Virus record (IMG/VR): IMGVR_UViG_3300024328_000748
Location: 1-59,169 of that record
Source of the DNA: a virus
Length of the DNA stretch: 59,169 nucleotides
Reading direction: 5' to 3' (one strand)
Part shown: positions 13,830 to 58,864 of the stretch, piece after piece
Numbering within the stretch: position 1 is the stretch's first letter
Layout of the letters: the number at the start of each line of letters is the position of its first letter
Notes under the pieces: generated by a model
The model's input: the letters and a program-made list of their open reading frames with translations, nothing else
The model's database searches: none
What the model was told of the DNA's origin: nothing
Translations under genes and position numbers: made by a program

Positions 13830-13854
13830 CTTTTTAGTAAATTAGTAGTATACT
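13826..13854 (+). promoter_or_regulatory. Sigma70-like promoter giving a leaderless mRNA
   Basis: TTGACT (13826-13831), 17-bp spacer, TATACT (13849-13854). Six nt later comes ATG at 13861, exactly the expected +1. Confidence 0.7.
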
Positions 13855-13860
13855 AATACT

Positions 13861-14553
13861 ATGATAAACATTACCAAAAAATACGATTACAAAGAACTAA
13901 AGCGTCAGAGTGTAGATGGAAAGCGTCTATATGAGAATCCATACGGCGATCCAGTTCCAAGTGTAACAACAATCCTAAGTGCTACACAACCAGCAGAAAA
14001 GCGACAAGCATTAGCTAACTGGCGTAAACGTGTTGGAACAGAAGAAGCACAACGTATTACTACAACTGCCGCTAATCGTGGAACAGTTATGCACAATATA
14101 TTAGAACATTGGGCATTAGGTGAATACGAAACATATAACCCTGGAAATAATATTGTACACAGACAAGCCAAGGATATGGCACAAGTTGTTATTGACAATA
14201 TTGAAAATGATGTAAATGAAATATGGGGCACAGAAGTAAATTTATGTGCCGCTAATTTATATGCAGGTACAACAGATTTAGTGGGCATGTATAAAGACAA
14301 GCCAACTATTATGGATTTTAAGCAAACTAACAAACCTAAAAAACGTGAATGGATTGACGACTACTTTTTACAAGGAGCCGCATATGCATTAGCACATAAT
14401 GAGATGTTTGAAACAAAGATTGAAAACATTGCCATCTTTATGTGTAGTGGTGATTGCCAGTGGCAACTGTTTGAATCTACCGAAGAAGACTTTTCTTATT
14501 GGGCTACACAATGGGCCAAGAGATTAGAGAAGTTTTATGGCATGTCTTCATAA
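13861..14553 (+). CDS. PD-(D/E)XK nuclease, RecB/Cas4-like exonuclease
   Basis: A 230-residue nuclease of the PD-(D/E)XK superfamily. An N-terminal RGTVMHNILEHWA (about 77-89) is the motif I His block of RecB-type nucleases. GTTDLVGMY (about 139-147) supplies the motif II Asp, and IMDFKQTNK (about 151-159) supplies the D-x-K motif III. A QGAAYALAHNE helix gives the QxxxY block. It probably degrades or processes DNA ends in recombination or host-DNA breakdown. Its ATG falls at the predicted +1 of the promoter at 13826, so the message would be leaderless. Confidence 0.75.
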   Translation: MINITKKYDYKELKRQSVDGKRLYENPYGDPVPSVTTILSATQPAEKRQALANWRKRVGTEEAQRITTTAANRGTVMHNILEHWALGEYETYNPGNNIVHRQAKDMAQVVIDNIENDVNEIWGTEVNLCAANLYAGTTDLVGMYKDKPTIMDFKQTNKPKKREWIDDYFLQGAAYALAHNEMFETKIENIAIFMCSGDCQWQLFESTEEDFSYWATQWAKRLEKFYGMSS

Positions 14554-22670: not shown

Positions 22671-22683
22671 ATTTAGTTTTATA

Positions 22684-22712
22684 TTGACAAATAAATACTA
22701 CTATTATATACT
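22684..22712 (+). promoter_or_regulatory. Sigma70-like promoter giving a leaderless mRNA
   Basis: TTGACA (22684-22689), 17 bp, TATACT (22707-22712). ATG at 22719 is exactly at the expected +1. Confidence 0.7.
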
Positions 22713-22718
22713 ATAAAC

Positions 22719-24107
22719 ATGAGACCATATCATTTACTAATACCGTCTGATCAATTAGCTATCAGTGACAAAAATACAAAACTAACTTACAATGAATTTA
22801 TAACAGAAATACACAAAATTAATGCGTGGTATAAACAAAATGGATATCATGCAGGACATAGAATTAGTGTAGTAGGAATAAATTCAGTGCATACGTATTT
22901 GTATCTATTCGCTGCGGCACTTGATATGTGTGCAACCACATTACCATATGGCGGCACTGAAGACGAATGGCGTTTTAGATTAGATTCAAATAACAGTAAT
23001 GCTATTGTGCATGTTAACACAGATGGTACAGTAAAGTTAGAACATTTACATTATGAGAAAAGCACAGTTCTTGATAAAGAAATAATGCTTTACTATAGTA
23101 GTGGCACAAGTCACCCATATGGCTGGACAAAAAGCTATCCAGTTCCATATGAATTAGATGAAAATAATTATGGCACTAGTCAAGATGTAACACACTATTA
23201 TCGTGAACGTGGAAACAAATGGTATCGTAACCCAGAAACAAACAAAACAATAAATGCAATGGCACCTTACATTGGGTGGGGACAAGAAGTTACATTTACA
23301 ACTATTGCCAAAGGCGGTCATGTGCATCTTATTGATAAACAAAGTGAATACACAGAAGCATGTAAATGGGTAAAACCCACATGGTTAGCAGGCTTTCCTT
23401 TAGCATGGCAAAAAGTAATAGACAGTGGTGATAATGGTGGTCATAATATTAAAGTGTTTGAATACAGTGGTGCAAAACTTATTGATGGACAAAAGGAAGA
23501 GTTTGAAAACTTCTTTGGACATAGTAATTGGATATGTGGATATGGAGACGCTGCAACAGGAATGACACTTGTTAATTACAGCAATAACTTTGATACAATA
23601 GGTAAGCCAATACAGTGTCTTGTTAATGCTGGTGCCGAATATAGACTGTCAAATGAAAATAGCACTATTGAATTTAGAGGTCCCATGACACCAGATGGTG
23701 ATTGGTGGGATACAGGAGATATAGCTGAAATAGACAGTAATGGAGATTGGATACTAAAAGGTAGAGCAAACGAACTTATTATTGTGCGTGGCGGAGGCAA
23801 AGTATATCCATTCGAAGTAGAACATGTTATGTCACAGCATCCTAATGTGAAGGAAGTATATGTTTATCCACAGCCAGATGATAAATTACACTTTGTTCCT
23901 GCATGCATATACAGTGGAGATATAAGTCCAGCAGAATTAAAAGAATGGTGCAAAAGTAAAATGCAATCTTTTAAATGTCCAGTAAAATATACAAGATTAA
24001 CAGATACAATCGCAGTATTAGGACAAGCTGCGTGTATACCAAAGGTAAGTCGAGTAAATATGTATAATACATTAAATGATAACCCAGAATGGATTAAAGA
24101 TGAGTAA
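22719..24107 (+). CDS. ANL-superfamily adenylating enzyme (acyl-CoA synthetase-like)
   Basis: Activates a carboxylate with ATP as acyl-AMP. Motifs of the ANL superfamily are in order: YYSSGTSHPYGWTK (about 125-138) as the P-loop A3, GYGDAATGM (about 273-281) as A5, DWWDTGDIAEIDSNG (about 328-342) as A7, GRANELIIVRGGGKVYPFEVE (about 347-367) as A8, and CIPKVSR near 440 as the A10 Lys. The N-terminal region is shorter than in host enzymes (462 residues). It leads an operon with a methyltransferase, a B12-type radical SAM protein and an oxygenase. It probably starts synthesis or modification of a small acyl compound; the substrate is unknown. Confidence 0.85.
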   Translation: MRPYHLLIPSDQLAISDKNTKLTYNEFITEIHKINAWYKQNGYHAGHRISVVGINSVHTYLYLFAAALDMCATTLPYGGTEDEWRFRLDSNNSNAIVHVNTDGTVKLEHLHYEKSTVLDKEIMLYYSSGTSHPYGWTKSYPVPYELDENNYGTSQDVTHYYRERGNKWYRNPETNKTINAMAPYIGWGQEVTFTTIAKGGHVHLIDKQSEYTEACKWVKPTWLAGFPLAWQKVIDSGDNGGHNIKVFEYSGAKLIDGQKEEFENFFGHSNWICGYGDAATGMTLVNYSNNFDTIGKPIQCLVNAGAEYRLSNENSTIEFRGPMTPDGDWWDTGDIAEIDSNGDWILKGRANELIIVRGGGKVYPFEVEHVMSQHPNVKEVYVYPQPDDKLHFVPACIYSGDISPAELKEWCKSKMQSFKCPVKYTRLTDTIAVLGQAACIPKVSRVNMYNTLNDNPEWIKDE

Positions 24108-29053: not shown

Positions 29054-29575
29054 CTAAAAATGTCTATTTCGTATGTTAGTGTAATTTTCTACGTTAACTT
29101 TCCATATACTTTGTTGTGTATAAAATATCTCTTCATCTCCACAGTATTCTACCATTTGTCCATGCTTTTCCATTATAGAAAATGATTTATGTATTCTATT
29201 CATTCTGCCACTAGAGTCGTTAGCAACATTTGTTGTGATATAAACAGGAGCCCCCATTGCAAATTCTAATTGCAGAGGCAAATGGTCTGCTATACAAAAA
29301 CTTTGCATTTGGTATCTAGTTAGTCCATTAATTGACTTTGGTTCTAATTGAGCACCCCTAAACAATGCTCTAAATCCATCTTTGAATAAATGTATACCAC
29401 TGATAGCTATTAACTTGCCATCCTTGAATGTTCCATGCCACATACCATTCTCTAAACACCAGTCAAATTTTAATGACTTTAGAGAGTTATTATTTTTGTA
29501 ACCTAATTTATCGCATTCAGCAATAAATTCTTCTAGTTCTGGTGTTACTTGGTCTAGTAGAGTTGTGTTTATCAT
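29054..29575 (-). CDS. GNAT-like acyltransferase (putative)
   Basis: A 173-residue protein whose order fits a GNAT fold: an N-terminal helix pair, HGTFKDGKLIAISGIHLF as beta hairpin, LFRGAQL, and a C-terminal GDEEIFYTQQSIWKVN strand. A clear acetyl-CoA pyrophosphate loop (Q/RxxGxG/A) is not seen, so it could be inactive or use another donor. Its ATG (29575) falls exactly at the +1 of the minus-strand promoter 29582-29610, making the mRNA leaderless. First gene of the operon down to 27063. Confidence 0.45.
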   Translation of the reverse strand: MINTTLLDQVTPELEEFIAECDKLGYKNNNSLKSLKFDWCLENGMWHGTFKDGKLIAISGIHLFKDGFRALFRGAQLEPKSINGLTRYQMQSFCIADHLPLQLEFAMGAPVYITTNVANDSSGRMNRIHKSFSIMEKHGQMVEYCGDEEIFYTQQSIWKVNVENYTNIRNRHF

Positions 29576-29581
29576 GCTTAT

Positions 29582-29610
29582 ATTATACTATTTGGTTGAC
29601 AATTTGTCAA
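29582..29610 (-). promoter_or_regulatory. Divergent sigma70-like promoter, minus strand, leaderless
   Basis: On the minus strand: TTGACA (29610-29605), 17 bp, TATAAT (29587-29582), then ATG at 29575 six nt later. Its -35 overlaps that of the plus-strand promoter. Confidence 0.75.
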
Positions 29611-29624
29611 GATATACTTATAAT
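29596..29624 (+). promoter_or_regulatory. Divergent sigma70-like promoter, plus strand
   Basis: TTGACA (29596-29601), 17 bp, TATAAT (29619-29624). The two opposing -35 boxes form the perfect palindrome TTGACAA-T-TTGTCAA (29596-29610). The plus transcript has a leader before ATG 29672. Confidence 0.75.
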
Positions 29625-33478: not shown

Positions 33479-33486
33479 CATAAATA
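33479..33486 (+). promoter_or_regulatory. T4-type late promoter giving a leaderless mRNA
   Basis: CATAAATA octamer followed by GCAGT and ATG at 33492, exactly the predicted +1. Confidence 0.7.
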
Positions 33487-33491
33487 GCAGT

Positions 33492-33986
33492 ATGGACGCT
33501 AAAAAAAGAATGAATTGTATGAAAATAATGCTGGTTGCGGCACTTTTGTTGCTAATCGGAGCTATTTTTTCATTGGTACATTCATACGTTAAATTACAAC
33601 AATCTTACCCATTAGAAAACTTACGTGGTGCAATATTACAGCCGGTGTACGATGGTGATCCAGTTTTAGAATTCCAAGGTACATATGATAGGTTTGTAAA
33701 GTGTAATATGACAGGATTTGATGTGCATTTATATAATGAAGAAACAGCAGATATAATTACACTTACTCATAATCATTTAGCAAAACCAATCCCAATAATA
33801 CCTGAACCAGCACACGACATAAAAACACAGTTTGCATTATTCATGCCAAAAACAATGTACCCAGGCACATGGAAACCTTCATTTACAGGATTCTACATAT
33901 GCCAATTAGGAATATTTGTAGATCCTAAAGTTCAAGTAATTACTCCTGAAGCATTTATAATCAAGCCAGCAGTAGCCGAAAAATAA
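33492..33986 (+). CDS. Membrane-anchored protein of unknown function
   Basis: A 164-residue protein with one N-terminal membrane segment (MLVAALLLLIGAIFSLV, about residues 13-29) behind basic residues, so the rest would lie in the periplasm. The soluble part is beta-rich (GTYDRFVKCNMTGFDVHLY, GTWKPSFTGFYICQLG) with two Cys. It is read from a late promoter with ATG at +1. The role is unknown; envelope modification is possible. Confidence 0.5.
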   Translation: MDAKKRMNCMKIMLVAALLLLIGAIFSLVHSYVKLQQSYPLENLRGAILQPVYDGDPVLEFQGTYDRFVKCNMTGFDVHLYNEETADIITLTHNHLAKPIPIIPEPAHDIKTQFALFMPKTMYPGTWKPSFTGFYICQLGIFVDPKVQVITPEAFIIKPAVAEK

Positions 33987-34426: not shown

Positions 34427-34434
34427 TATAAATA
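34427..34434 (+). promoter_or_regulatory. T4-type late promoter giving a leaderless mRNA
   Basis: TATAAATA octamer, then TAATT and ATG at 34440, exactly at the predicted +1. Confidence 0.75.
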
Positions 34435-34439
34435 TAATT

Positions 34440-35474
34440 ATGTTATACCCTATTATAGATAATGTTCAGTTTGACTTAAATGTTACATGCAATGCATTCT
34501 GCCCAGGATGTCATCGTTATGCATTTAAAGACGACAAAATGTATCTAAACCCATATCTAACTTTTAATACAAGTGTAGATCTTAGTGTAATTGAAAACAT
34601 AGTACAAAATCCAAGACTTGCAGATGATGTATGGCTAGACTTTGTAGGATTAGTAGGCGAACCTGTAGCTCATAAGCAGTTTTTAGAAATCACTGATATT
34701 GTATACAAATACAAACCAAATGCAGTTATTCAAATACACACAAATGGTGGACTAAGATCTACTGAGTTTTGGGAAGAGTTGGCACCAAAAATAATGAGAC
34801 AAGATGCCGCAAGCAGTGTTGTCTTTTCTATTGATGGATTAGAAGATACAAACAACACATATCGAATTGGTGTTCTATGGGAAAAAGTAATGGAAAATGC
34901 AAAAGCATACATTGACGCAGGTGGAAGAGCAACCTGGAAATGTATTGAGTTTCCATGGAATTCTCATCAAAAAGACGAAATACAACAGTTAGCAAACTCT
35001 ATGGGAATGCAAAAATTTCGATGGGAACCAAACAGAGATGCTGATTCAGAGCGTATGATAAAGTATATGAAAGCAGCAAAAGAGTTTCATAAAAAAACAA
35101 AAATAGATTCTGAAGATTTCAATATAACAAATGAAGACTCTAACTATCCGGGTACAAAAAATCTAAATGCAGAAATAGGCAATCAATACAATAGCTTTAC
35201 TGAAATAGAAGATCAATGCTTTAGTCAAAAAACAATATATGTAAATTACGATGGTAGAGTATTACCTTGTTGTCAGTTTAATGGTTCTACTACAGATCCA
35301 GCATTCAAAGAAGAAATGATTCCATTTATATATGATGGCAATGACAAAGATTGGAATAACCTATATAAAAATAGTTTAGAAGATGTATTGACTAACAGTT
35401 GGTGGACACGACTATATTCAAGTCTTACGGATACACCCTGTTCCGTTTGTGTAAGTGCATGCGAAAAAAGATAA
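34440..35474 (+). CDS. Radical SAM protein with SPASM-like C-terminus
   Basis: The 344-residue protein has C17-x3-C21-x2-C24 (CNAFCPGC) for the SAM-bound cluster. A C-terminal block with LPCCQFNG (about 278-285) and CSVCVSAC (about 334-341) resembles a SPASM domain that holds extra Fe-S clusters. SPASM enzymes often modify peptides. It is a paralog of the gene at 40052, with the same Cys spacing and ending. Its message would be leaderless. Substrate unknown; a modified phage or host peptide is one possibility. Confidence 0.75.
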   Translation: MLYPIIDNVQFDLNVTCNAFCPGCHRYAFKDDKMYLNPYLTFNTSVDLSVIENIVQNPRLADDVWLDFVGLVGEPVAHKQFLEITDIVYKYKPNAVIQIHTNGGLRSTEFWEELAPKIMRQDAASSVVFSIDGLEDTNNTYRIGVLWEKVMENAKAYIDAGGRATWKCIEFPWNSHQKDEIQQLANSMGMQKFRWEPNRDADSERMIKYMKAAKEFHKKTKIDSEDFNITNEDSNYPGTKNLNAEIGNQYNSFTEIEDQCFSQKTIYVNYDGRVLPCCQFNGSTTDPAFKEEMIPFIYDGNDKDWNNLYKNSLEDVLTNSWWTRLYSSLTDTPCSVCVSACEKR

Positions 35475-40038: not shown

Positions 40039-40046
40039 ACTAAATA
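40039..40046 (+). promoter_or_regulatory. Late-type promoter giving a leaderless mRNA
   Basis: ACTAAATA octamer, then CTTGT and ATG at 40052, exactly at the predicted +1. The octamer differs from the consensus at position 2. Confidence 0.6.
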
Positions 40047-40051
40047 CTTGT

Positions 40052-41026
40052 ATGCTTTACAAAGAAATAGATACAGTTGAGTTCGATCTCAATACAGTCT
40101 GTAATTCATACTGTCCTCCATGTCATCGATATACAGTTCAAGACGGTGAACTGTATCATAATCCATATGTAAAATTAGGTGTTAACTTAGAGCTTGATGT
40201 GATTGAGAAAGTATTCAGCAATGACCGTTTATCTGATGATTGTTTTGTTGATCTTGTTGGATTAGTGGGCGAGCCAATCGCACATCCAAATTTTATGGAA
40301 ATTATAGATATTATCTATAAGCATAGACCAAATGCAGCAATTAACTTACATACAAATGGTGGATTACGAACTGAAAAAATGTTCTATGATTTAGGTAAAA
40401 AGTTTAACAAGCATAGTTGGATTAAATTCTCATTAGATGGATTAGAAGATACAAACGGCATATATCGTATTGGCGTAGACTATAATAAAGTAGTAGCAAA
40501 CATGCGAGCATTTATAGATGGCGGCGGCCGAGCAATATGGAAATTTGTTACATTTAAATGGAACGAACATCAAGTAGAACAAGCAAAAGCGTTGTCAGAA
40601 GAATACGGCTGTGAAAATTTCCAACAAGATTGGGATGTTAATGATCAAGATATAGATACATTTATGGCTGCAGCCAATACAAAAATTAATAAAAAGGTAG
40701 CCTCAAGAGTAGCAGACTTTATTGAAGTACCAAAAAACAGATCACGTAAAATTAAAGATAGATGTTTTTCATATAAGAAAATATATGTAAATGCACATGG
40801 ATATGTTATTCCGTGTTGTATGTTTAATGGGTCATTTACATATGAATCTATGCGTGAACAAACTCTAAATTTTATTAAAGAAGATAGAGGCGAATATTGG
40901 AACAGTTTATATCACAATGACCTAGAAACTATAATGAGCGACACTTGGTGGCAAAAACTAAAAGATAGTTTTGAAACTGGTCCATGTGATATTTGTGTAA
41001 GCCAATGCGGTGTTAAATTAGATTGA
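40052..41026 (+). CDS. Radical SAM protein with SPASM-like C-terminus, paralog of 34440
   Basis: The 324-residue protein has C17-x3-C21-x2-C24 (CNSYCPPC) at the same positions as the 34440 protein. A later VIPCCMFNG block and the ending CDICVSQC match the SPASM-like Cys set. The central WFDL-type strands and a GLEDTNGIYRIGVDYNKV block also match. It probably modifies a peptide or small substrate. The message is leaderless. A sigma70-like promoter follows for the next gene. Confidence 0.75.
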   Translation: MLYKEIDTVEFDLNTVCNSYCPPCHRYTVQDGELYHNPYVKLGVNLELDVIEKVFSNDRLSDDCFVDLVGLVGEPIAHPNFMEIIDIIYKHRPNAAINLHTNGGLRTEKMFYDLGKKFNKHSWIKFSLDGLEDTNGIYRIGVDYNKVVANMRAFIDGGGRAIWKFVTFKWNEHQVEQAKALSEEYGCENFQQDWDVNDQDIDTFMAAANTKINKKVASRVADFIEVPKNRSRKIKDRCFSYKKIYVNAHGYVIPCCMFNGSFTYESMREQTLNFIKEDRGEYWNSLYHNDLETIMSDTWWQKLKDSFETGPCDICVSQCGVKLD

Positions 41027-41306: not shown

Positions 41307-42146
41307 ATGTATAGTAAGCAACAATTATTAGATAAACAAAAGACTGCCGCACTTGCATTAGAAAAATCACAAGCATTGGAAACAAAGTTTGCTGACAGAT
41401 TTGAAATGGCAAAGTCTTTGTTTGCAGTATTAGATAAAGAACTTTTTATCGAATGCAATGATATTGATGAAAATGATCCTTATAATATTGAACCATGGCA
41501 AGATGAAGATGTACCCGATAAAAGCTATGCATGGAAACATCAAGGACCTGTATTTGGGTTTGATATAGACACTATGGTTGGACCAGAAAGCTGGTACGAT
41601 GAAACATGTGGTGTAGATGATTATGTATTGCGTAGAAAATGTTACATATATGATTGGACTGCTGATAAGCTACAAGCAGACTTTCCTGAACTAAAATATT
41701 TTACAGATTTACACAAAGAATTTGTTCCAGTGTTGCAACATTATTATAATGAATGCTTTGAGGACCAACATGTAGATGTTGCAAAAACTTTACATAAACT
41801 TATGGTTATTGAATATTCGCATCCAACTGCAAACGCAGGCAATATTATAGATCATAAAAAACACAACACAGATAGATTTGGCGATATACATTGTGACGAA
41901 ACATTAGGCGGATTACACTTAGGTGAAAACGTAGTAGAGTTTTACATAGAAGACCACATAACTACAGAACGTAAATATGTAAAAGAACTATCAGAGAATA
42001 ATACATTATGGTTCTTTGGTGAGTTTAGTGAACGCAGTGGGTGGCAACCTAGTATGCACGGAATGAAGCATAACCCAAGTGATGATACTTGGAAAAGATA
42101 TAGTATAATTTTTGATTTACAAGCAAGATATAACGGAGAAGAATAA
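41307..42146 (+). CDS. 2OG-Fe(II) oxygenase-like protein
   Basis: A 279-residue protein with H195-x-D197 ([10 protein letters not shown]) and a distal His in MHGMKHN (H251 or H255), followed by R264-x-S266 that could bind 2-oxoglutarate, as in Fe(II)/2OG enzymes. It differs in sequence from the 31490/57020 pair. It likely oxidises a peptide or small molecule. It ends two bases from the ClpP gene's ATG (stop 42144-42146, ATG 42148). Confidence 0.6.
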
Positions 42147-42147
42147 A

Positions 42148-42738
42148 ATGGCATTAGTACCAATGGTGGTCGAACAAACAGGCCGCGGAGAAAGAAGTTA
42201 CGATATTTACAGTCGTCTATTAAAAGATCGTATTGTAATGTTAACTGGAGAAGTAAACGACATGACTGCTAATTTAGTAGTTGCACAGATGTTGTTTTTA
42301 GAATCACAGAATAATAGCGATCCTATTAATTTTTATATTAACAGTCCAGGTGGTGCAGTTACAGCCGGTCTTGGAATATACGATACAATGCAGTTTATTA
42401 AATCTCCAGTAAGCACAATTGTAATGGGTCAAGCATGTAGCATGGGTAGTTTCCTTGCTATGGCAGGCGAAGCTGGACAACGTTTAGTATTGCCAAACTC
42501 ACGCACAATGATTCACCAACCAAGTGGTGGCGCAGGTGGACAAGCAACTGACATGGAAATTCAAGTACAAGAAATTCTTAAGATGAAAAAGAACCTAACA
42601 GAAACTTATGTCAAACATAACAGTGTAGGTAAAACGTATGACGAATTGGCAGCGGCTATGGAACGTGATAACTTTATGTCAGCACAAGAGGCAGTAGACT
42701 TTGGATTAGCTGATAAAGTTATAGAAAGAAAACCATAG
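42148..42738 (+). CDS. clpP: ATP-dependent Clp protease proteolytic subunit
   Basis: The 196-residue serine protease keeps the full catalytic triad: S98 in GQACSMGS, H123 in [10 protein letters not shown] and D174 in MERDNFMSA. Length and blocks match bacterial ClpP (about 200 residues), without a long propeptide. It would form the 14-mer chamber with the ClpX encoded at 45963. I chose ATG 42148; the longer in-frame start lies inside the oxygenase gene. Confidence 0.95.
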
Positions 42739-42760: not shown

Positions 42761-42768
42761 TATAAATA
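42761..42768 (+). promoter_or_regulatory. T4-type late promoter giving a leaderless mRNA
   Basis: TATAAATA octamer, then CTTAT and ATG at 42774, exactly at the predicted +1. Confidence 0.75.
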
Positions 42769-42773
42769 CTTAT

Positions 42774-43472
42774 ATGAAAATATACGACATACTAGAAAAT
42801 CATCAAATTGAAGAAGGTCCAAACGACCCAGCCATATTTAAGGCTGTGTTTTTAGCTGGCGGTCCTGGTTCTGGTAAGAGTTATGTAGCAACAAAGATAC
42901 TCAGTGGACTAGGATTAAAACCAGTTAACAGTGATGAGATATATGAATACTTAGCATACAAGCAAGATCTTGATTTGGGAAATCCAGATGAAGTTGCTAG
43001 TGACCAAGGACAAGAAGTGCGTGATCGTGCAAAACAACTTACTGATAAAAGACAAAACATATACATTGATGGTCGTATTGGATTGATTATTGATGGCACA
43101 GGTAAAGACGTGCAAAAGGTAAAAGATCAAAGTGAGAAATTAAAAACTTTAGGATACGAATGTTCAATGATATTCGTTAACACTAATTTACAAGTAGCAC
43201 AAGAACGTAATGCTGCAAGAGCTAGAACAATACCAGCCGACATGGTACAAACTATGTGGCAAAAAGTCCAAGAAAACATTATGAAGTTCCAACAAGTATT
43301 TGGTGCAAAAAACTTTCATGTTGTAGATAATAGCGGTGGATTAGAAGATCCAGAACGCAAGGAAAACTTTGATAATGTATACAAGAGTATTAGAGCATTT
43401 ACTTCTTCAGAACCAAGTAGTCATATTGCTAAAAAATGGCTAGATAATGCAAAAAGTAAAAATACTACTTAA
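42774..43472 (+). CDS. Zeta-toxin/polynucleotide-kinase-like P-loop kinase
   Basis: The 232-residue protein has a P-loop AGGPGSGKS at residues 28-36, followed by a switch-like NSDEIYEYL. IDGRIGLIIDGTGKD (about 98-112) holds acidic residues and an RNAARARTIP block supplies lid Arg. This pattern fits the zeta toxin/PNK group of kinases, which phosphorylate nucleic acid ends or UDP-sugars. It has its own leaderless late transcript. Confidence 0.6.
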   Translation: MKIYDILENHQIEEGPNDPAIFKAVFLAGGPGSGKSYVATKILSGLGLKPVNSDEIYEYLAYKQDLDLGNPDEVASDQGQEVRDRAKQLTDKRQNIYIDGRIGLIIDGTGKDVQKVKDQSEKLKTLGYECSMIFVNTNLQVAQERNAARARTIPADMVQTMWQKVQENIMKFQQVFGAKNFHVVDNSGGLEDPERKENFDNVYKSIRAFTSSEPSSHIAKKWLDNAKSKNTT

Positions 43473-43918: not shown

Positions 43919-45514
43919 ATGAGATTATTTGGTTATTGGACAATTTTAGTAGCACTTGTTATTAGTGCAATCGCGGCATGGTATAGTATTATAGGCCTTG
44001 TTGCAATTTTCGCCGCCGCAGTAATGCCAGTTATTATAATGGGAACAGCATTAGAAATTGGTAAAATCACATCAGCTATATGGCTACACTTTAACTGGAA
44101 AACTAAACGATGGATGATAAAATCATACTTGGTTTTTGCAGTTGCATTGCTTATGTTTATTACAAGCATGGGTATTTTTGGATTCCTATCAAAAGCACAC
44201 GTAGAACAAAACGCATCTATGTTAGAAGGTGTTGCACAACTAGAACGTATTGAAGTAGAAATTACACGTGCCGAAGGTGAGATAGAACGTGCTGAAGGTA
44301 AAATTGAAAAACTTTCAACAGCAGATACAAGCACAGATGATGGCATACAAGAAAAGATTAGAGTAGCAGAACAAAGTATAACAACTGTATACGATAGATT
44401 AAAAGACGATATTAAATTTACACAAGACTCATTAGCAACAGCAGCCGAACCATATGAGAAGCAAGCCGAACAAGCAGACGCTACACTAGAAAAAATGAAT
44501 ACTTATGTTGAGGAAAACAACATAAGAGCATTACAAGGTTTAGTAGGTGCTGCACAAGACGGAAGAATGGGAACCAAGACAGCTGATAAAGTTACAGAAT
44601 TCCGTGACAAAATTGAAAAGAGCAGAATGATGGCTCTATTCCAACTTGGAAAAATCAGAGAATCATCACAGGAAGATATTGTTAAATTAAGAGAAGCAGC
44701 AGACAAAACAATAGCACAAACAAATGAACTTATTAATCGTTTGCGTGAGCAATTGGGAACAGCAACAGATACAGATGTTGAACCACAGATACAAGAATTA
44801 CAAGTTAAAATTAAAGATTTTGAACTAAATTTAGATACACTGTTTGAACAAAAGTATGCTATAGAAGCCGAAAGTAGAGAACTTGAAGCTGAAGTAGGTC
44901 CTGTAAAATATATTGCAGAGTTAGTATACGGAGAAGAAGCAAATAGAGACACACTAGAAGATGCAGTTAGATGGGTAATACTTATACTTGTTGTAGTATT
45001 CGATCCACTTGCAATCGTATTAGTTATCTCAGGTATAGCTCTTGTTGAAGAAAACCCTAGAAAAAAGAGGATACGTAATGAGCAACCACATACAGAAAAT
45101 GCAAAAAAAGAGACCAAGTTGGTGGAAAAAACTATCAAAAAAGATACCACCAAAAAAGATAATACAACACCTGAAGAACAAATAGAGTCTAAAAAAAAGA
45201 CAATAAAACCTGAGGCTATTGAGTTCCAAGGAAAAGTATATCAACCCACACATTATAACTATCAACGTATCAAAGAACAGATAGAACAAAACGACAGACA
45301 TCGCAGTATTGAAGCCAGACAAGAGATGGTAAATAATATTGTAGGCAGATTAGAAATAACTGATCCTAAGAAGTTTGACGATGTAGATATTGTTAAAAAG
45401 CAATTAGAACAAATCTTTGAAGACGACCAAAAAGAAGCAGAAAGATTAGCTAATGCAGATACTAAACATATACTTGAAGTATATGAAAAGATAATTAAGG
45501 GCACTAAGAAATAA
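43919..45514 (+). CDS. Large coiled-coil membrane protein
   Basis: A 531-residue protein. Three membrane segments lie at about 5-25, 27-47 and 65-85 and another at about 350-375 (ILILVVVFDPLAIVLVISG). Between them is a long coiled coil (about 95-330). The segment NIRALQGLVGAAQDGRMGTKTADKV (in pieces, about 200-225) resembles a peptidoglycan-binding repeat (LQ..LG..DG..G.kT). The C-terminal tail is charged. It may build an envelope-spanning structure for late infection or lysis. Function is not established. Confidence 0.55.
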   Translation: MRLFGYWTILVALVISAIAAWYSIIGLVAIFAAAVMPVIIMGTALEIGKITSAIWLHFNWKTKRWMIKSYLVFAVALLMFITSMGIFGFLSKAHVEQNASMLEGVAQLERIEVEITRAEGEIERAEGKIEKLSTADTSTDDGIQEKIRVAEQSITTVYDRLKDDIKFTQDSLATAAEPYEKQAEQADATLEKMNTYVEENNIRALQGLVGAAQDGRMGTKTADKVTEFRDKIEKSRMMALFQLGKIRESSQEDIVKLREAADKTIAQTNELINRLREQLGTATDTDVEPQIQELQVKIKDFELNLDTLFEQKYAIEAESRELEAEVGPVKYIAELVYGEEANRDTLEDAVRWVILILVVVFDPLAIVLVISGIALVEENPRKKRIRNEQPHTENAKKETKLVEKTIKKDTTKKDNTTPEEQIESKKKTIKPEAIEFQGKVYQPTHYNYQRIKEQIEQNDRHRSIEARQEMVNNIVGRLEITDPKKFDDVDIVKKQLEQIFEDDQKEAERLANADTKHILEVYEKIIKGTKK

Positions 45515-45517
45515 TTA

Positions 45518-45970
45518 ATGAAACTAGATGATAATAGCAGTTATACAGTAACCGCACCAGATTTATTCCTTTCTGAAAATGGAGTAAACGTCTTAATAAC
45601 AAGTACAAACGAAGAACTAGTTAACGGAATCAAATTATTATTTGAAAAGTTTATCAGAACAAGTGTCATCTTTAACGTACAACTTACACAATCAGACCCA
45701 GCAACTATGCCTTGGATGTGGCACGTAAGTAGAACATGCGAATATATGGTTGTTGACCTTGATACATGTGCATGGGAAGATATAATGGCTGCACTATTAA
45801 AAACAAAAACGCCTAACCATACTGTAGTATTTTATGCAGAAAAACGAGTAAGACGAGAAGCAATAAAATTAATCAATGCAACCAGTAAGTACATTACTAT
45901 TACTAACTTAGAAGAATTAAATAAATTTTTAGATATAGATACTAGGTACCCAGGCATGACAGATGAGTAA
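45518..45970 (+). CDS. Conserved protein of unknown function upstream of clpX
   Basis: A 150-residue alpha/beta protein (start MKLDDNSSYTVTAPD). A strand-helix pattern with VLITSTNEELVNGIKLLFEKF and NHTVVFYAEKRVRREAIKL recalls a small Rossmann-like or receiver-like fold, with no active residues recognised. It overlaps clpX by 8 nt, so it may be an adaptor or partner for the Clp system; that is inference only. Confidence 0.5.
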   Translation: MKLDDNSSYTVTAPDLFLSENGVNVLITSTNEELVNGIKLLFEKFIRTSVIFNVQLTQSDPATMPWMWHVSRTCEYMVVDLDTCAWEDIMAALLKTKTPNHTVVFYAEKRVRREAIKLINATSKYITITNLEELNKFLDIDTRYPGMTDE

Positions 45971-47162
45971 TCCATACTGTAATTTTTGCGGTAAAAACAA
46001 ACATCAAACCAAAAAATTATTAGCCGGTAATGATGGAACGCATATCTGTGACGGGTGTGTGGATCTTTGTCACGACATTCTAATTAAAGAAAAAGCTAAA
46101 ACTAGCGGCACACCGGAGCAAGCAACACGCCTTAAGCTACCTACACCAACAGAACTACACGAACACTTAAATAGATATGTAATAGGACAAACCTCCGCTA
46201 AAAAGACGCTTAGTGTAGCTGTATACAACCACTACAAGCGTATTAAGAACACTACACAAGTAAAGCTTCAAAAGAATAATGTGTTAATTGCAGGTCCTAC
46301 AGGAACAGGTAAAACACTTATTGCTTCTACACTAGCATCATATTTAGATGTTCCATTTGTAGTTACAGATGCAACAACAATAACTGAAAGCGGATATGCT
46401 GGTGATGACTCTGAAGTGTTAATAGATAAACTATTACAAGCTGCAGATTATGATATAGAAAAAGCACAATTAGGTATTATATACGTAGACGAAATTGATA
46501 AAAAAGCAAAGCGAAATGATATGGTAAGTCTAAGTCGAGATGTATCAGGCGAAGGTGTACAACAGAGCTTGCTAAAATTAATGGAAGGTGTTACAATAAC
46601 AGTACCAAACAAACACGGAGATCATCCAGAAAAAGTAGATATAGATACTACTAATATATTGTTTATAGTGGGTGGTGCATTTATAGGATTAGACGATATA
46701 GTAAAACAACGTGTTGGTAAAGGTAGAATCGGATTTAATGATGATAACCAGTCAAAGCTAGATAATTGGGAATTGCATTTACAAACACCTGACTTAGTCA
46801 AGTATGGACTTATACCTGAATTTGTAGGAAGATTGCCAAGTGTTAATGTTTTACACCAATTAACCAAAGAAGAATTGATAAAAATACTAACAGAACCACA
46901 AGATTCAATAATAGATCAAATAAAAGTGCTTTTTTCACTTGACAAAATACAAATAGAGTTTAATATAAAAGCATTAGAGGAAATTGCCTCTATTGCAATA
47001 GAACAAGACCTCGGTGCTAGAGGGTTAAGAAAGATACTGGATGCAGCACTTGTTGAAACACAATACCAGTTACCACAACTAAGAGAAAGCGGAGTGACAA
47101 AAATTATAATAACAGATAAAGTAATCAGCGATGGACATATGCCATTAATGGTTAAAGGGTAA
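45963..47162 (+). CDS. clpX: ClpX AAA+ unfoldase
   Basis: Unfolds proteins and feeds them to ClpP. The 399-residue protein is near full length. It has the N-terminal zinc-binding domain (C6, C9, C29, C32), Walker A GPTGTGKT (111-118), pore loop SGYAGDD (about 142-148), Walker B IIYVDEID (about 175-182), and the IGF loop (I256-G257-F258) that docks ClpX on ClpP. It ends one base before infC. All working parts appear intact, so a phage ClpXP is feasible. Confidence 0.94.
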   Translation: MSNPYCNFCGKNKHQTKKLLAGNDGTHICDGCVDLCHDILIKEKAKTSGTPEQATRLKLPTPTELHEHLNRYVIGQTSAKKTLSVAVYNHYKRIKNTTQVKLQKNNVLIAGPTGTGKTLIASTLASYLDVPFVVTDATTITESGYAGDDSEVLIDKLLQAADYDIEKAQLGIIYVDEIDKKAKRNDMVSLSRDVSGEGVQQSLLKLMEGVTITVPNKHGDHPEKVDIDTTNILFIVGGAFIGLDDIVKQRVGKGRIGFNDDNQSKLDNWELHLQTPDLVKYGLIPEFVGRLPSVNVLHQLTKEELIKILTEPQDSIIDQIKVLFSLDKIQIEFNIKALEEIASIAIEQDLGARGLRKILDAALVETQYQLPQLRESGVTKIIITDKVISDGHMPLMVKG

Positions 47163-47163
47163 T

Positions 47164-47682
47164 ATGAGAAAACCACATAGCCCACATAACAAATTTCGTG
47201 TTACATCAAATGATCAAATACGATACAAAGAAGTAAGAGTAATTGCACGTGAACAAGAAAGTGTAGTTATGGCAACAAAAGATGCATTAAATTCTGCAAG
47301 AAATCAAGGACTAGATCTAATCCTTATTAATGATAAAGCTAATCCACCATTGTGTAGAATCGTAGAAATGAATAAATACTTATACGAACAGAAACAAAAA
47401 GAAAAAGCAGAGAAAAAGCGCCAACGTGAGAATTTAACAGATCAAAAAGAAATACGTATGGGGTTAAATATTGATGTACATGATCTACAAACAAAGGCTA
47501 ATCATGCCAAAAAGTTTTTAGAGCAAAAAGCAAAAGTCACGGTGACAATTGTGTTAAAAGGCCGCGAAAGAGGCAAACAAGACATGGCAAGAGATCTATT
47601 GAATAGCTTCGCTGAATTATTAGAAGCTGAGTATGAAACGATAAATAGTCAAAACAATAGAGTAATTGGACGTGTAAAATAG
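47164..47682 (+). CDS. infC: Translation initiation factor IF-3
   Basis: IF3 binds the 30S subunit, controls start-codon choice and prevents 50S joining on wrong or leaderless complexes. The 172-residue protein has both domains. The N-terminal block is followed by LDLILINDKANPPLCRIVEMNKYLYEQ (in pieces, about 50-77). The C-terminal domain starts KEIRMGLNIDVHDLQTK and continues into KVTVTIVLKGRERG and a final RVIGRVK. Host IF3 is about 180 residues, so little is lost. It lies between clpX and the bS21 gene. Confidence 0.93.
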   Translation: MRKPHSPHNKFRVTSNDQIRYKEVRVIAREQESVVMATKDALNSARNQGLDLILINDKANPPLCRIVEMNKYLYEQKQKEKAEKKRQRENLTDQKEIRMGLNIDVHDLQTKANHAKKFLEQKAKVTVTIVLKGRERGKQDMARDLLNSFAELLEAEYETINSQNNRVIGRVK

Positions 47683-47689
47683 GTAATAA

Positions 47690-47971
47690 ATGGCGAAGTA
47701 TAATAACAACAACTATTCTCGAGATAGAAACAAAAATAACAGAGACGATAAGAATTACGGATTATCTGTCGAAGTAAGAAACAACAACGTAGAACAAGCA
47801 ATGCGTAAGTTGAAAAAGAAAATAATGAATGATGGCATGTTACAAGAATTACGTGAACGCCAGCATTTTGTAAGTAATACAGAAAAGCGATTAAAGGCCG
47901 AGGCTGCGGCTCGTGCCAGACATCGTAAACGTATAGCCAAAGATAGTATCGAAAAGAAAAGGCTATACTAA
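47690..47971 (+). CDS. rpsU: Ribosomal protein bS21
   Basis: The 93-residue protein has a disordered Asn/Arg/Asp-rich head (about 1-24). The S21 core follows: LSVEVRNNNVEQAMRKLKKK (about 25-44), then MLQELRERQHFVSN, and a basic tail (KAEAAARARHRKR). bS21 binds 16S rRNA beside the anti-Shine-Dalgarno. The N-terminal extension is longer than in E. coli (71 residues). It lies 7 nt after infC. Phage-encoded bS21 is known in marine phages; the pairing with IF3 is what stands out here. Confidence 0.88.
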   Translation: MAKYNNNNYSRDRNKNNRDDKNYGLSVEVRNNNVEQAMRKLKKKIMNDGMLQELRERQHFVSNTEKRLKAEAAARARHRKRIAKDSIEKKRLY

Positions 47972-48563: not shown

Positions 48564-48872
48564 ATGTCATCGACACAATCAACAAATGAAGCAGTAGTAG
48601 AAAAACAAAGAGTAACAGCACCTAATAAATATATGGTTATTTTTCTAAATGACAACGTAACACCTATGGAATATGTTATACAGGTATTGATGACATATTT
48701 TAATAAAACCACAGAACAAGCGAACGAAATTACATTAGAAGTTCACGAAAAAGGCAGATCAATTGCTGGTGCTTATAGTTACGAAGTAGCAGAACAAAAA
48801 TGTATTGAAACAGTTACAGACGCAAGAAAACATAACTACCCACTTGATGTAGTTATGGAAGAATCAGCCTAA
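48564..48872 (+). CDS. clpS: ClpS adaptor
   Basis: Recognises N-degron proteins and delivers them to Clp unfoldases. The 102-residue protein has FLNDNVTPMEYVIQVL (about 31-46), with the Asn-Asp pair and the gatekeeper Met. VHEKGRSIAGAYSYEVAEQK (about 65-84) holds the conserved His and Gly. In bacteria ClpS works with ClpA, while this window shows only ClpX, so it may use host ClpA or a phage route. It follows the hsp20 hairpin. Confidence 0.9.
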   Translation: MSSTQSTNEAVVEKQRVTAPNKYMVIFLNDNVTPMEYVIQVLMTYFNKTTEQANEITLEVHEKGRSIAGAYSYEVAEQKCIETVTDARKHNYPLDVVMEESA

Positions 48873-50220: not shown

Positions 50221-50468
50221 TGTTACACACTGTAGAAGCACTAATAGACAAGATTAAAGCAATGCACGATAAAGCAATTTTACTACATAGACTTCGAAAT
50301 CAGTATTCAGAACATGCAGACCAAACATACGACAAAGCAGAATGCCAGTCTCTAATTGATGATATTCAATACATGGCTAAACTTATTTCAAACGATAAAC
50401 AAGGTGATGAGATTAAAACCGAGATGGAATACAAGAAATTTTTAAAGGATAACGAAAATGAGAATTGA
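50220..50468 (+). CDS. Small helical protein of unknown function
   Basis: An 82-residue, mostly helical protein ([22 protein letters not shown]; then [19 protein letters not shown]). It resembles a small coiled-coil pair with no motif. It overlaps DexA by one base and GMP reductase by 11 nt, so translation is coupled with both. No function assigned. Confidence 0.5.
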
Positions 50469-51588
50469 CCAAGATATTAAACTAGACTACAGTGATGTGT
50501 TAATTCGCCCAAAGCGTAGTACATTAAGTTCACGCAAACAAGTAAGACTTGAACGCAAGTTTAAATTTAGAAACAGCAGACACGAGTACGAAGGTATTCC
50601 TATTATGGCTGCTAATATGGATGGTGTTGGAACATTTGAACTAGCAGATGAACTTGCACAACAAAATATATTTACATGTTTAGTAAAAACATATTCAGTG
50701 GAAGAACTTGTAGATTTTTTTAACAATGATTATCCAGATAATAGAAGAACACAAAACATTGCTATGAGCATTGGTACAGGAACAATAGACTTTGATAAGT
50801 TAGAAGCCGTGTATAATAAAGTAAGCAATAAACTAAAATATGTATGTATGGATATTGCAAATGGTTACAGTGACCATTTTGCACAACACGTTAAAAAAGT
50901 ACGTGATAAATTTCCGAACTTAGTAATTATAGCAGGTAACGTAGTTACTGGAGAAATGACAGAGGAGTTAATTTTAAATGGAGCTGATATTGTTAAAGTG
51001 GGCATTGGTCCCGGGTCTGTTTGCACTACTAGGATTCAAACTGGTGTGGGATACCCGCAACTATCTGCGGTCATCGAATGCGCCGATGCAGCACACGGAC
51101 TTGGGGGTCACATTATTGCTGATGGTGGGTGCAGTTGCCCTGGAGATGTCGCTAAAGCCTTTGCTGCTGGAGCAGATTTTGTTATGCTTGGTGGCATGCT
51201 CGCTGGGCACGATGAAGGCGGCGGCGAAGTAATTACCCGATACTATGAAACTAGTGAACTAGAATATGAAGTTGGCGAGCATTTAAATAATCGCAAACAT
51301 AAAGTAGAAGAAAAGAAGTTTGTACAATTTTATGGAATGAGTTCAGATGCAGCCAACACAAAACATTTTGGCGGACTAAAAGACTATCGTTCAAGTGAAG
51401 GACGTGAAGTACTTGTGCCATATCGCGGTGCAGTTGCTAACACACTTCAAAATATATTAGGTGGAATTAGATCAACTTGCACATATGCAGGCGCAATGAA
51501 ACTCAAACAACTTAGTAAATGCACAACGTTTGTTCGTGTTAACAATCAGTTTAACAAAACATACGAAAGCACAACAACCAAAATATAA
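50458..51588 (+). CDS. guaC: GMP reductase
   Basis: Converts GMP to IMP with NADPH. The 376-residue protein has the type start [19 protein letters not shown], the catalytic Cys189 in GPGSVCTTR and a long FGMSS/ATxxH-type tail region ([15 protein letters not shown]). The family is IMPDH/GMPR; the [14 protein letters not shown] block favours GMP reductase. Bases 51000-51240 differ: GGG, CCC, GCT and GGT codons appear that the rest of the gene avoids, suggesting a recombined patch from another source. Confidence 0.88.
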
Positions 51589-52868: not shown

Positions 52869-52876
52869 GCTAAATA
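52869..52876 (+). promoter_or_regulatory. Late-type promoter giving a leaderless mRNA
   Basis: GCTAAATA octamer, then CTATT and ATG at 52882, exactly the predicted +1. Position 2 departs from the consensus. Confidence 0.55.
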
Positions 52877-52881
52877 CTATT

Positions 52882-53865
52882 ATGAGTAAAGTAAATCTAA
52901 TACCCGACTTAGTACAACAAATAACTGTAGCTAAAACGCAGGAAGAAAAGTATGAGCTTGTAAAAAAGTATGAAAAAGAAACATTAGTTAAGCGTATAAT
53001 GATTTTTGCATACAATCCATGGATAGATTTTAAATTACAAACTTTTACACCAAAGCACAGCGGTAAACAATTTGGCATGGGTATAAGTAAATTTATGCAC
53101 ATGTTCGAAGAAATTATTGAAGGACAACTTGATCCAAAGGATGCAGAGTTTGGATTTAATATGGCATTTTTGCATATAGAGACAAACCAAGCACCTGTTA
53201 TGCTTGCACTAATTAATCAGACATTAGACAAACAACTAGGACTTACTGCAGAAACAATAAACCGTGTGTGGCCAAATTCAATACACACATACCCATTACG
53301 TGTAGCATTAGAATCAAATTACACAAAATTTGATAACTTTCCTGCATCTGTGCAAACAGTAAGTGAAGGTCTACGTATAAATGTTATTGTATATGATGGA
53401 ACTGTATCTTTTAGACAAAAAGATGGCACTGTAATTGAAGGATGGAAATATTGGAATCAACAGTTTCTTAATCTTGCACAAGGGCAGAATACTGTATTTG
53501 ATGGACATGCCGTAATTGCAAAAAACAACAAGGTAGCTGAAACAGACAACGCCAAAGTATTAGAGGCCGATATTGAAGATATAAGATTTATATTTTGGGA
53601 TGTTATACGTTACGATGGATTTGTTCACGGCGAAGATACACGCATAGGGTACAACTGGCGTTACAACGGACTTGAACATATGATGATGTTAGCATATGCA
53701 AAGAACCCAGAACCATGTTATGATATATTAAAAGCAGAAATGGTTGGGTCCAAAGAACAATTAGAATCTACTATTAAAAACTATAGTAAGGCAGTTATAA
53801 AGTCGTTAGATAGTACTTGGTCTGATGGCTCAACTGAGAATGAAATTATTTTTTCTCAGAAATAA
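52882..53865 (+). CDS. gp30-like DNA ligase without catalytic lysine (pseudoenzyme)
   Basis: A 327-residue protein that follows T4 gp30 ligase through the N-terminal domain. LVKRIMIFAYNPWIDFKL matches the helical start. INRVWPNSI (about 127-134) matches NKVWPGLI, and NFPASVQTVSEGLR (152-165) aligns with the motif I FPAFAQLKADGAR. The nucleotide-accepting Lys (T4 K159) is Val160 here, and the motif III Glu in DGELVY is His in DGHAVI. The chain stops before motifs IV-VI. It cannot seal DNA by the usual route and may act as a structural or inhibitory relative. Leaderless message. Confidence 0.65.
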   Translation: MSKVNLIPDLVQQITVAKTQEEKYELVKKYEKETLVKRIMIFAYNPWIDFKLQTFTPKHSGKQFGMGISKFMHMFEEIIEGQLDPKDAEFGFNMAFLHIETNQAPVMLALINQTLDKQLGLTAETINRVWPNSIHTYPLRVALESNYTKFDNFPASVQTVSEGLRINVIVYDGTVSFRQKDGTVIEGWKYWNQQFLNLAQGQNTVFDGHAVIAKNNKVAETDNAKVLEADIEDIRFIFWDVIRYDGFVHGEDTRIGYNWRYNGLEHMMMLAYAKNPEPCYDILKAEMVGSKEQLESTIKNYSKAVIKSLDSTWSDGSTENEIIFSQK

Positions 53866-55532: not shown

Positions 55533-56172
55533 CTTTGATTATCCTCGACAAAATTTTATTACATTCTATTTTATTTTCTTTGCTTATTAATCCGTGTTTC
55601 CTATAGTTATATTTAAATGCAATTTCAATATCAGCTTCAAGTGAAAAATCATAGGCTTGTTGAACTTCTTGCCAATTCCAGTCAAATATAATATAATGCC
55701 ACTCAGTTCTTCCGCCTGATTGGTTGAACGCTATCATGTTATCCATTGCTCGTTGCCAATCAACACCTTCTCTGTATTTCCAATTAGTGTCATGTGACAT
55801 GCCATCAATACCAAAAAACATTTGTAATTTTCTTCCATATTTTTCAGCCATTGTAGCATACCAGTCTGGAGTTCTTAGGCCACCATTTGTATTAATAAGT
55901 AAACTAACTAAATTTGGATGGTCAAATATACGATCAACAAAATCTGTTATTCTGGGATGCATCATAGGGTCACCAAGTTCTCCACAAAATTGTGCCATAT
56001 ATAAATCATGTGGAGATTTGTTAAGTATATTATCAAACACTGGATAAGACATATGAGTTGGTGTTAACCAACTATTAACCTCTCCAGTATCTTCATTGGT
56101 TCGTTGACAACTTCTACATTTAGCTTGACAGTATGTAGTAATAGCAAAGTCAATCTGAGTGTTTAATTTCAT
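55522..56172 (-). CDS. Split radical SAM protein, copy 1
   Basis: A 216-residue protein with C15-x3-C19-x2-C22 (CQAKCRSC). I chose ATG 56172 because it lies exactly at +1 of the minus-strand late promoter 56185-56178, making the mRNA leaderless; an ATG at 56187 would lie inside the promoter. NTNGGLR, FGIDGMSHDTNWKYREG and MAQFCGELGDP are family blocks. It lacks a C-terminal SPASM, provided by the 55176 gene. Confidence 0.75.
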   Translation of the reverse strand: MKLNTQIDFAITTYCQAKCRSCQRTNEDTGEVNSWLTPTHMSYPVFDNILNKSPHDLYMAQFCGELGDPMMHPRITDFVDRIFDHPNLVSLLINTNGGLRTPDWYATMAEKYGRKLQMFFGIDGMSHDTNWKYREGVDWQRAMDNMIAFNQSGGRTEWHYIIFDWNWQEVQQAYDFSLEADIEIAFKYNYRKHGLISKENKIECNKILSRIIKDEK

Positions 56173-56177
56173 ACATG

Positions 56178-56185
56178 TATTTATC
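56178..56185 (-). promoter_or_regulatory. T4-type late promoter, minus strand, leaderless
   Basis: GATAAATA on the minus strand, then CATGT and ATG at 56172 (predicted +1). Shares one base (56185) with the plus-strand promoter. Confidence 0.7.
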
Positions 56186-57784: not shown

Positions 57785-58851
57785 ACGTCTAAACATTCTT
57801 TCCAGTCTATTTTTCTAATAGTAGAAAGGGTGTCGTAATAAGAAAGCATCATTGCTCTAAGTTTATCATAATCTTCTTGTGTGCTATTGAACTTGAGTAA
57901 CTTATTAAGTTTCTTATTATCTAAACTTCTTGCTTTCTCAATAATATGCGGTTGTGCTAAAAATGGTTGTAGATGCTTTGGCTTATAAACACTATTTGCA
58001 TCCCATCTAATATTTCTTTGTTGACACCAATCTATTAATTGTGGTAAACTGTCCACACTACCTGCTTGCAAACTTGTTTCAATGTTAACAGTAATATTAT
58101 CGTATTCTAACATTTTGTCAATATTACTTTCTATCTTATTCCATTTAAGTGGCCAGCGTATAAAGTCATTAGCAGTACCATATGCATCTATACTAACATT
58201 AATATAAACTTCTCTGAATCTCTTTAGTGTTTCTTGTAAACGTTTGCTAAAGCTACCGCCATTGCTTGTTATTTGTATACGCATGTCACTGTTAAGTTCA
58301 ACAAGTTGTGTTAGAAAATCATCTAGCAATCCTCTAACTGTAGGTTCACCGCCTGTGAATCTGATACGTTTTGCTCGGCGAGCAAACTCAATTACTTCTC
58401 TAAATTTGTTCTCATCTTCAAACCAATTTGTTTCTAATGGGCTACTAAAAACTCTAAACTGTTCCAATTGTGGATTTGATTTGTTTTCAGCATCAAGTAA
58501 ACTACTGTTGTATGCACTACACATAATACAGCCTGCATTACATATATTGCCAAACTTAATTTCCATATCAAACAGATCAAATTCTTCTCTATCTGGATAT
58601 CTACTTTCGCCAGTTTGTACCATGCCTTCTATGCCAGCTTCTTCATCTAAAGCACATTCGTTGCAACCTACAGAAAACTTATCTGCTTTCATGTCAGTCA
58701 TTACGTTTTTATAGAAGTCACTATTCAAGTAATCCTCTATACTATTTGTTGCTACATCTAATTGATTGTCTTGTTCTTCCCATGCACAACAGGGTCTGTA
58801 TTTGCCTGTAGAACTTATACTTACATGGTTTGACGGCCATTTACACTTCAT
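57781..58851 (-). CDS. Radical SAM protein with N-terminal SPASM-like block
   Basis: The 356-residue protein has C104-x3-C108-x2-C111 (CNAGCIMC) as the SAM cluster motif, GGEP in RFTGGEPTV (about 160), and N-terminal Cys sites (CC at 21-22, and VGCNEC near 61-66) in reversed domain order. I chose ATG 58851 at +1 of the minus-strand late promoter. An earlier in-frame ATG would put the start before the promoter. It is next to iscU, which starts 83 nt away on the other strand. Confidence 0.75.
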   Translation of the reverse strand: MKCKWPSNHVSISSTGKYRPCCAWEEQDNQLDVATNSIEDYLNSDFYKNVMTDMKADKFSVGCNECALDEEAGIEGMVQTGESRYPDREEFDLFDMEIKFGNICNAGCIMCSAYNSSLLDAENKSNPQLEQFRVFSSPLETNWFEDENKFREVIEFARRAKRIRFTGGEPTVRGLLDDFLTQLVELNSDMRIQITSNGGSFSKRLQETLKRFREVYINVSIDAYGTANDFIRWPLKWNKIESNIDKMLEYDNITVNIETSLQAGSVDSLPQLIDWCQQRNIRWDANSVYKPKHLQPFLAQPHIIEKARSLDNKKLNKLLKFNSTQEDYDKLRAMMLSYYDTLSTIRKIDWKECLDV

Positions 58852-58856
58852 ATTAC

Positions 58857-58864
58857 TATTTATA
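58857..58864 (-). promoter_or_regulatory. T4-type late promoter, minus strand, leaderless
   Basis: TATAAATA on the minus strand, then GTAAT and ATG at 58851 (predicted +1). Confidence 0.75.

Follow-up and report, generated by a model that had tools for sequence, protein, structure and literature searches.

A conserved IF3–bS21 gene pair within the proteostasis module of a marine phage family

The virus record IMGVR_UViG_3300024328_000748 from IMG/VR was analyzed over its full 59,169 bases (the window), which are probably a fragment. It encodes translation initiation factor IF3 and ribosomal protein bS21 as adjacent genes, and this pairing is conserved in the marine phage family to which the record belongs. 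With a probability of roughly 0.55, the two genes form the translation arm of a proteostasis module conserved among these phages, serving as a supplement to the 30S subunit that would raise and redirect initiation in general. The reading is based on the presence of both IF3 domains and their fold, the RLY-bearing core of bS21, the co-inheritance of the two genes, their dN/dS ratios, and their linkage to clp genes and tmRNA.

The IF3 and bS21 genes and their conservation as a pair

The two genes are as follows:
47164-47682, + strand: IF3 (infC), 172 aa, both domains present (PF05198 and PF00707)
47690-47971, + strand: ribosomal protein bS21, 93 aa, identified by PF01165, alignment and matches to bS21 in the PDB

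An earlier note on this DNA had described a full-length infC at 47164 and a bS21 gene at 47690, 7 nt apart and flanked by clpX and hsp20. The coordinates and Pfam matches agree, with the pair bracketed by the end of clpX at 47162 and the start of hsp20 at 48058. The phage IF3 scores above the curated cut-offs for both domains (IF3_N: E = 2.4e-22, 79.3 bits, cut-off 26.9; IF3_C: E = 9.5e-20, 70.8 bits, cut-off 34.8) and matches PHROG 9787, annotated as a translation initiation factor. The earlier note had also called for a structure prediction and a phylogeny of both proteins. The AlphaFold2 model of IF3 (mean pLDDT = 80) is a two-domain fold with a helical linker, and a Foldseek search with this model matched the 30S-bound IF3 of Thermus and E. 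coli, with hits to 5lmn, 8jsh, 1tif and 1tig and per-domain TM-scores of ~0.8 to 0.9 of the target. In a maximum likelihood tree, the family IF3 sequences group with those of the 121Q, XbC2 and GAP32-type jumbo phages (support 99/100) and are separate from the sampled clostridial and E. coli sequences; the tree has long branches, and its bacterial sampling is limited to E. coli and to clostridial genomes from a pattern-biased genome scan. A recent pickup of IF3 from a host was considered and receives no support from the tree among the clostridial genomes and E. coli sampled.

The carboxy terminal domain of the family IF3 departs from the bacterial-type residues (R129 and the GREMAH motif) of the comparison set, which was made up of E. 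coli and clostridial IF3 and may not define all bacterial IF3. In the alignment, M135 is replaced by R and H137 by K or R in 31/31 distinct sequences; R133 and E134 are retained and the motif becomes GRER-x-K/R. R129 (E. coli numbering) is replaced by V, I or T in most members, and the linker is two residues longer than in the compared IF3. The literature search returned no paper on the function of GREMAH. The altered residues could reflect a ribosomal role that has been changed or lost.

The bS21 protein also scores above the cut-off for its family (PF01165, Ribosomal_S21, E = 1.9e-13, 50.3 bits, cut-off 27). It carries an N-terminal extension of ~25 aa that is rich in Asn, Arg, Lys and Tyr, and its C-terminus, KKRLY, contains the RLY/KLY head-contact motif in its gamma/beta-type form. 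RLY has been described as a contact to 16S h37 in gammaproteobacteria, and KLY-like motifs occur in some phage S21 proteins. The RLY terminus is absent from bS21 in part of the family. Signals of the host are in conflict, since the gamma/beta-type RLY of bS21 stands against an alpha-type tmRNA in relatives. Both genes are under purifying selection (dN/dS = 0.10–0.30 for IF3 and 0.09–0.26 for bS21). The possibility that either is a pseudogene or a fragment is excluded by the full domains, the fold and the dN/dS ratios.

Among IMG/VR contigs, bS21 is found in the same operon for 27 of the 31 distinct family IF3 sequences, and it lies between IF3 and the next conserved gene in 44/48 family loci (L139-L186), a degree of conservation that excludes chance adjacency. 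Most loci have a spacing of -14 to +9 nt, whereas one subgroup has 96 nt. In all relatives whose contig extends far enough, the pair is bordered by clpX and clpS. Four members have no bS21 beside IF3, and thus the pair is not obligatory. Three of these have no space for it, with hsp20 or clpS within ~110 nt after IF3, and in the fourth the gap is occupied by a different, long frame.

The proteostasis module and its counterparts in other phages

The pair is embedded among the following genes:
42112-42738, + strand: ClpP protease subunit (PF00574, E = 8.1e-80 at 42184-42729), TTG start
43919-45514, + strand: conserved 531-aa protein, no assigned function, first gene of the syntenic block, hydrophobic N-terminal stretches
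45518-45970, + strand: conserved 150-aa protein, no assigned function, in conserved order, overlapping the clpX start
45963-47162, + strand: ClpX unfoldase (PF06689, PF07724), with zinc finger and IGF loop
48058-48498, + strand: Hsp20 small heat shock protein (PF00011, E = 4.6e-16; phrog_432)
48564-48872, + strand: ClpS adaptor (PF02617, E = 6.2e-28)

The order of the module (clpP, the two conserved unknowns, clpX, IF3, bS21, hsp20, clpS) recurs in dozens of IMG/VR contigs of up to 221 kb. The 531-aa protein had no PHROG match and the 150-aa protein had neither a Pfam nor a PHROG match. Judging from its sequence, the phage ClpX retains the zinc finger and the IGF loop used for ClpP docking, and together ClpP, ClpX and ClpS would apparently provide the window with a complete ClpXP protease and its N-degron adaptor. 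An alpha-type tmRNA was identified in 9/12 relatives tested, as well as in the Pelagibacter phages HTVC008M and Mosig; the 59,169-base window yielded none. The permuted alpha-type tmRNA is located at 2280-2645 of L069 (G001) and at 4595-4959 of L078 (G002), in both cases ~7 kb from the IF3 operon, and occurs in other relatives. Two relatives contain tRNA clusters. Downstream of the module, at 50458-51588, is an IMP dehydrogenase/GMP reductase-like gene whose synteny extends to most relatives.

A late promoter driving the IF3 operon was considered and set aside. The sequence TTAAATA is present 19 nt upstream of orf43919 in the window and in L003 only, and a second TTAAATA, 42 nt upstream of bS21, falls inside the IF3 coding sequence; the promoters leave the timing of the operon unsettled.

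Parts of this arrangement have precedents. The presence of IF3 and S21 in huge phages, the tails of phage S21 and the idea of a hijacked ribosome have been published (Al-Shayeb 2020, PMC7162821), as has the proximity of bS21 to Hsp20 and Clp genes (Chen 2022, PMC9723584). In the Sinorhizobium phages AP-J-162 (PMC11242549) and Phosso (PV764938), clpX is directly beside IF3 and S21 is encoded in the same genome, as in the present family; however, S21 is not adjacent in AP-J-162 and is ~6.8 kb away in Phosso, which further differs in having a bacterial-type IF3 (GRELSH). Escherichia phage 121Q and related jumbo phages resemble the family in that IF3, which belongs to the same group of the tree, adjoins a ClpS-like gene, but 121Q has no S21. 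Since either clpX or a ClpS-like gene is found beside IF3 in Phosso and the jumbo phages, respectively, the adjacency of IF3 and Clp genes looks, from these gene orders, to be older than that of IF3 and bS21. HTVC008M, Mosig and the bS21 phages of PMC9723584 share with the family a bS21 gene near hsp20, the alpha-type tmRNA and the late-box geometry described below; HTVC008M and Mosig differ in that IF3 was not found in either, and HTVC008M is also without ClpP. The accessible text of the huge phage report (PMC7162821) was not found to describe an operon pair of IF3 and bS21, which here is a conserved adjacent pair within one marine phage family. The earlier note had known of no described phage operon with both factors. 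This holds for the adjacent and conserved operon, which was not found in the literature searched (few subscription journals were covered) and is what is new, but not for the co-occurrence of both factors in phages, or in one phage, which AP-J-162 had already provided.

Leaderless promoter geometry and the possible roles of the pair

Eleven genes of the window have a promoter placed at a fixed, short distance from the start codon:
33480-33494, + strand: late box TAAATA-N5-ATG, ATG at 33492
34428-34442, + strand: late box TAAATA-N5-ATG, ATG at 34440, radical SAM protein
40040-40054, + strand: late box TAAATA-N5-ATG, ATG at 40052, radical SAM protein
42762-42776, + strand: late box TAAATA-N5-ATG, ATG at 42774, P-loop/kinase-like protein
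52870-52884, + strand: late box TAAATA-N5-ATG, ATG at 52882, DNA ligase-like protein
56170-56184, - strand: late box TAAATA-N5-ATG, ATG at 56172, radical SAM protein
58849-58863, - strand: late box TAAATA-N5-ATG, ATG at 58851, radical SAM protein
1819-1863, + strand: sigma70-type promoter, -10 end 6 nt before ATG at 1861, DNA primase
13819-13863, + strand: sigma70-type promoter, -10 end 6 nt before ATG at 13861, exonuclease
22677-22721, + strand: sigma70-type promoter, -10 end 6 nt before ATG at 22719
29573-29617, - strand: sigma70-type promoter, -10 end 6 nt before ATG at 29575, gene 29054-29575

A T4-type late box is positioned exactly 5 nt before the ATG of seven window genes versus 0.29 at other spacings (P = 2.4e-8), and the same enrichment was observed in close relatives and larger contigs. 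In four further genes, a TTGAC...TANNNT promoter has its -10 element ending exactly 6 nt before the ATG; relatives share this spacing and none was found in T4, 121Q, Syn9 or HTVC008M. An artefact of AT-rich sequence was rejected, as enrichment is confined to spacing 5 (late) or 6 (sigma70) and the equally AT-rich genomes of T4 and 121Q show neither. If transcription begins at the usual start of such promoters, all 11 messages would be leaderless. The earlier note had counted ten genes with the ATG at the predicted +1, and the geometry bears this out with seven late-type and four sigma70-type genes, the starts themselves being predicted. In larger relatives, late-type genes include terminase-like and gp25-like proteins (judged by eye). 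The four radical SAM genes of the window (34440, 40052, and 56172 and 58851 on the - strand) each stand behind a leaderless late box. SD-like sequences precede about half of the window genes and, across the family, most IF3 and clpS genes.

It had been proposed in the earlier note that the pair favors leaderless late messages of the phage over leadered messages of the host. For host ribosomes to prefer leaderless phage messages, IF3 could, for example, be a variant that does not discriminate against them. This would be in keeping with a leaderless geometry that is significant in every family genome with sufficient sequence, with differences between the family IF3 and its E. coli and clostridial counterparts at C-domain positions that are strongly conserved, and with the finding that leaderless translation in E. 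coli increases when infC mutations relax start selection (PMC9031893). The published effect of raised wild-type IF3, however, is opposite in sign, as it inhibits translation of leaderless mRNA in E. coli (PMC9031893, PMC4611024), and the phyletic comparison argues against leaderless messages depending on IF3. Late-box geometry is significant in the IF3-less pelagiphages HTVC008M (11 genes) and Mosig (6 genes), whereas the IF3-encoding 121Q and Phosso lack it over the 200 kb sampled from each. Late-type leaderless genes also comprise just ~3–9% of genes in family genomes of at least 59 kb. The sigma70-type messages for primase and exonuclease would presumably be translated by unmodified host ribosomes; if both genes are expressed early, which is what their functions suggest, their translation must fall to host ribosomes while the phage factors are still absent. 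Since the IF3/bS21 operon and about half of the phage genes are SD-led, a clean contrast between leaderless phage and leadered host messages does not emerge. Thus, the link between the pair and leaderless messages is not supported and a preference of this kind is quite unlikely. It is also unlikely that a phage-specific IF3 whose C-domain loop has been rewritten would, together with a tailed bS21, yield a reprogrammed 30S subunit with a start-site selectivity unlike that of the host, for instance one that tolerates or prefers leaderless and weak-SD phage messages.

A plain supplementation of the host is possible, if doubtful. Host IF3 and bS21 may become limiting after takeover of a slow-growing marine cell, with the phage proteins acting as equivalents that leave selectivity unchanged. 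Strong purifying selection on both genes and the presence of other gap-fillers (tRNAs, tmRNA) in relatives are consistent with such a role, and the occurrence of RLY in some members but not in others would be in line with a match to different hosts, which has been described for phage S21. The conserved N-terminal tail of bS21 and the family-specific substitutions of IF3 are more than simple mimicry of the host would account for, and IF3 is moreover unlike a recent host copy among the bacteria sampled. The phage proteins might instead replace host versions that are modified or degraded by a host defense and so sustain 30S initiation. While this has been proposed generally for phage bS21 (PMC7550191, PMC9723584), and IF3 and bS21 are co-located with Clp genes, the system has no known defense target and evasion is highly improbable.

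For the preferred reading, a 30S supplement within the proteostasis module, the identity of the genes, the fold, synteny, purifying selection and family-specific residue changes are established, and we infer ribosome binding, timing and an effect on message choice. IF3 and bS21 would be exchangeable components that both act on the 30S platform. The phage IF3 would enlarge the supply of factor that maintains free 30S subunits and monitors start sites, and the phage bS21, with its charged N-terminal tail, may swap onto the host 30S subunit near the SD-antiSD helix. As a result, initiation would be raised and redirected to phage messages generally, the majority of them SD-led or leadered in another way, and not to the leaderless class. 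The resulting burden on protein quality would be dealt with by the Clp proteins, Hsp20 and tmRNA. Hijack models for phage S21 and IF3 have been published (PMC7162821, PMC9723584), and a redirection of host translation has repeatedly been put forward for phage ribosomal and initiation proteins, mostly for genes taken singly. An operon of two 30S-platform neighbors beside ClpXP, ClpS and Hsp20, with tmRNA in relatives, makes the idea testable with two small proteins, and the precise leaderless geometry of the family offers a natural message class for assays.

A candidate RNA thermometer in the hsp20 leader

One further element is located directly after bS21 and upstream of the phage hsp20:
47996-48063, + strand: ROSE-like RNA thermometer candidate, a hairpin followed by UUGCU opposite the hsp20 Shine-Dalgarno sequence

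The hsp20 leader resembles the ROSE thermometers (RF02523) in having a hairpin and a UUGCU opposite the Shine-Dalgarno sequence upstream of a small heat shock gene, and this pairing is accompanied by a covarying structure; it may be regarded as a candidate ROSE-like thermometer. It differs from the known members in being phage-borne, of which no case was found in the literature searched, and in scoring below the Rfam gathering cut-off (ROSE_3: 26.7 bits, E = 8.9e-4 in a 251-base scan, gathering score 43). In the alignment of family leaders, CTTGCTTAA is invariant and eight pairs have changes on both sides, with 0/500 shuffles as good; the SD helix presents one-sided variation only. A family model, built with the window sequence included, scores the window at 73.5 bits. 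The same model also gives lower-scoring hits, each immediately ahead of hsp20, in bS21 contigs, cyanophage Syn9, Mosig and HTVC008M; those of Mosig and HTVC008M (E ~0.1 to 0.2) count solely through their position.
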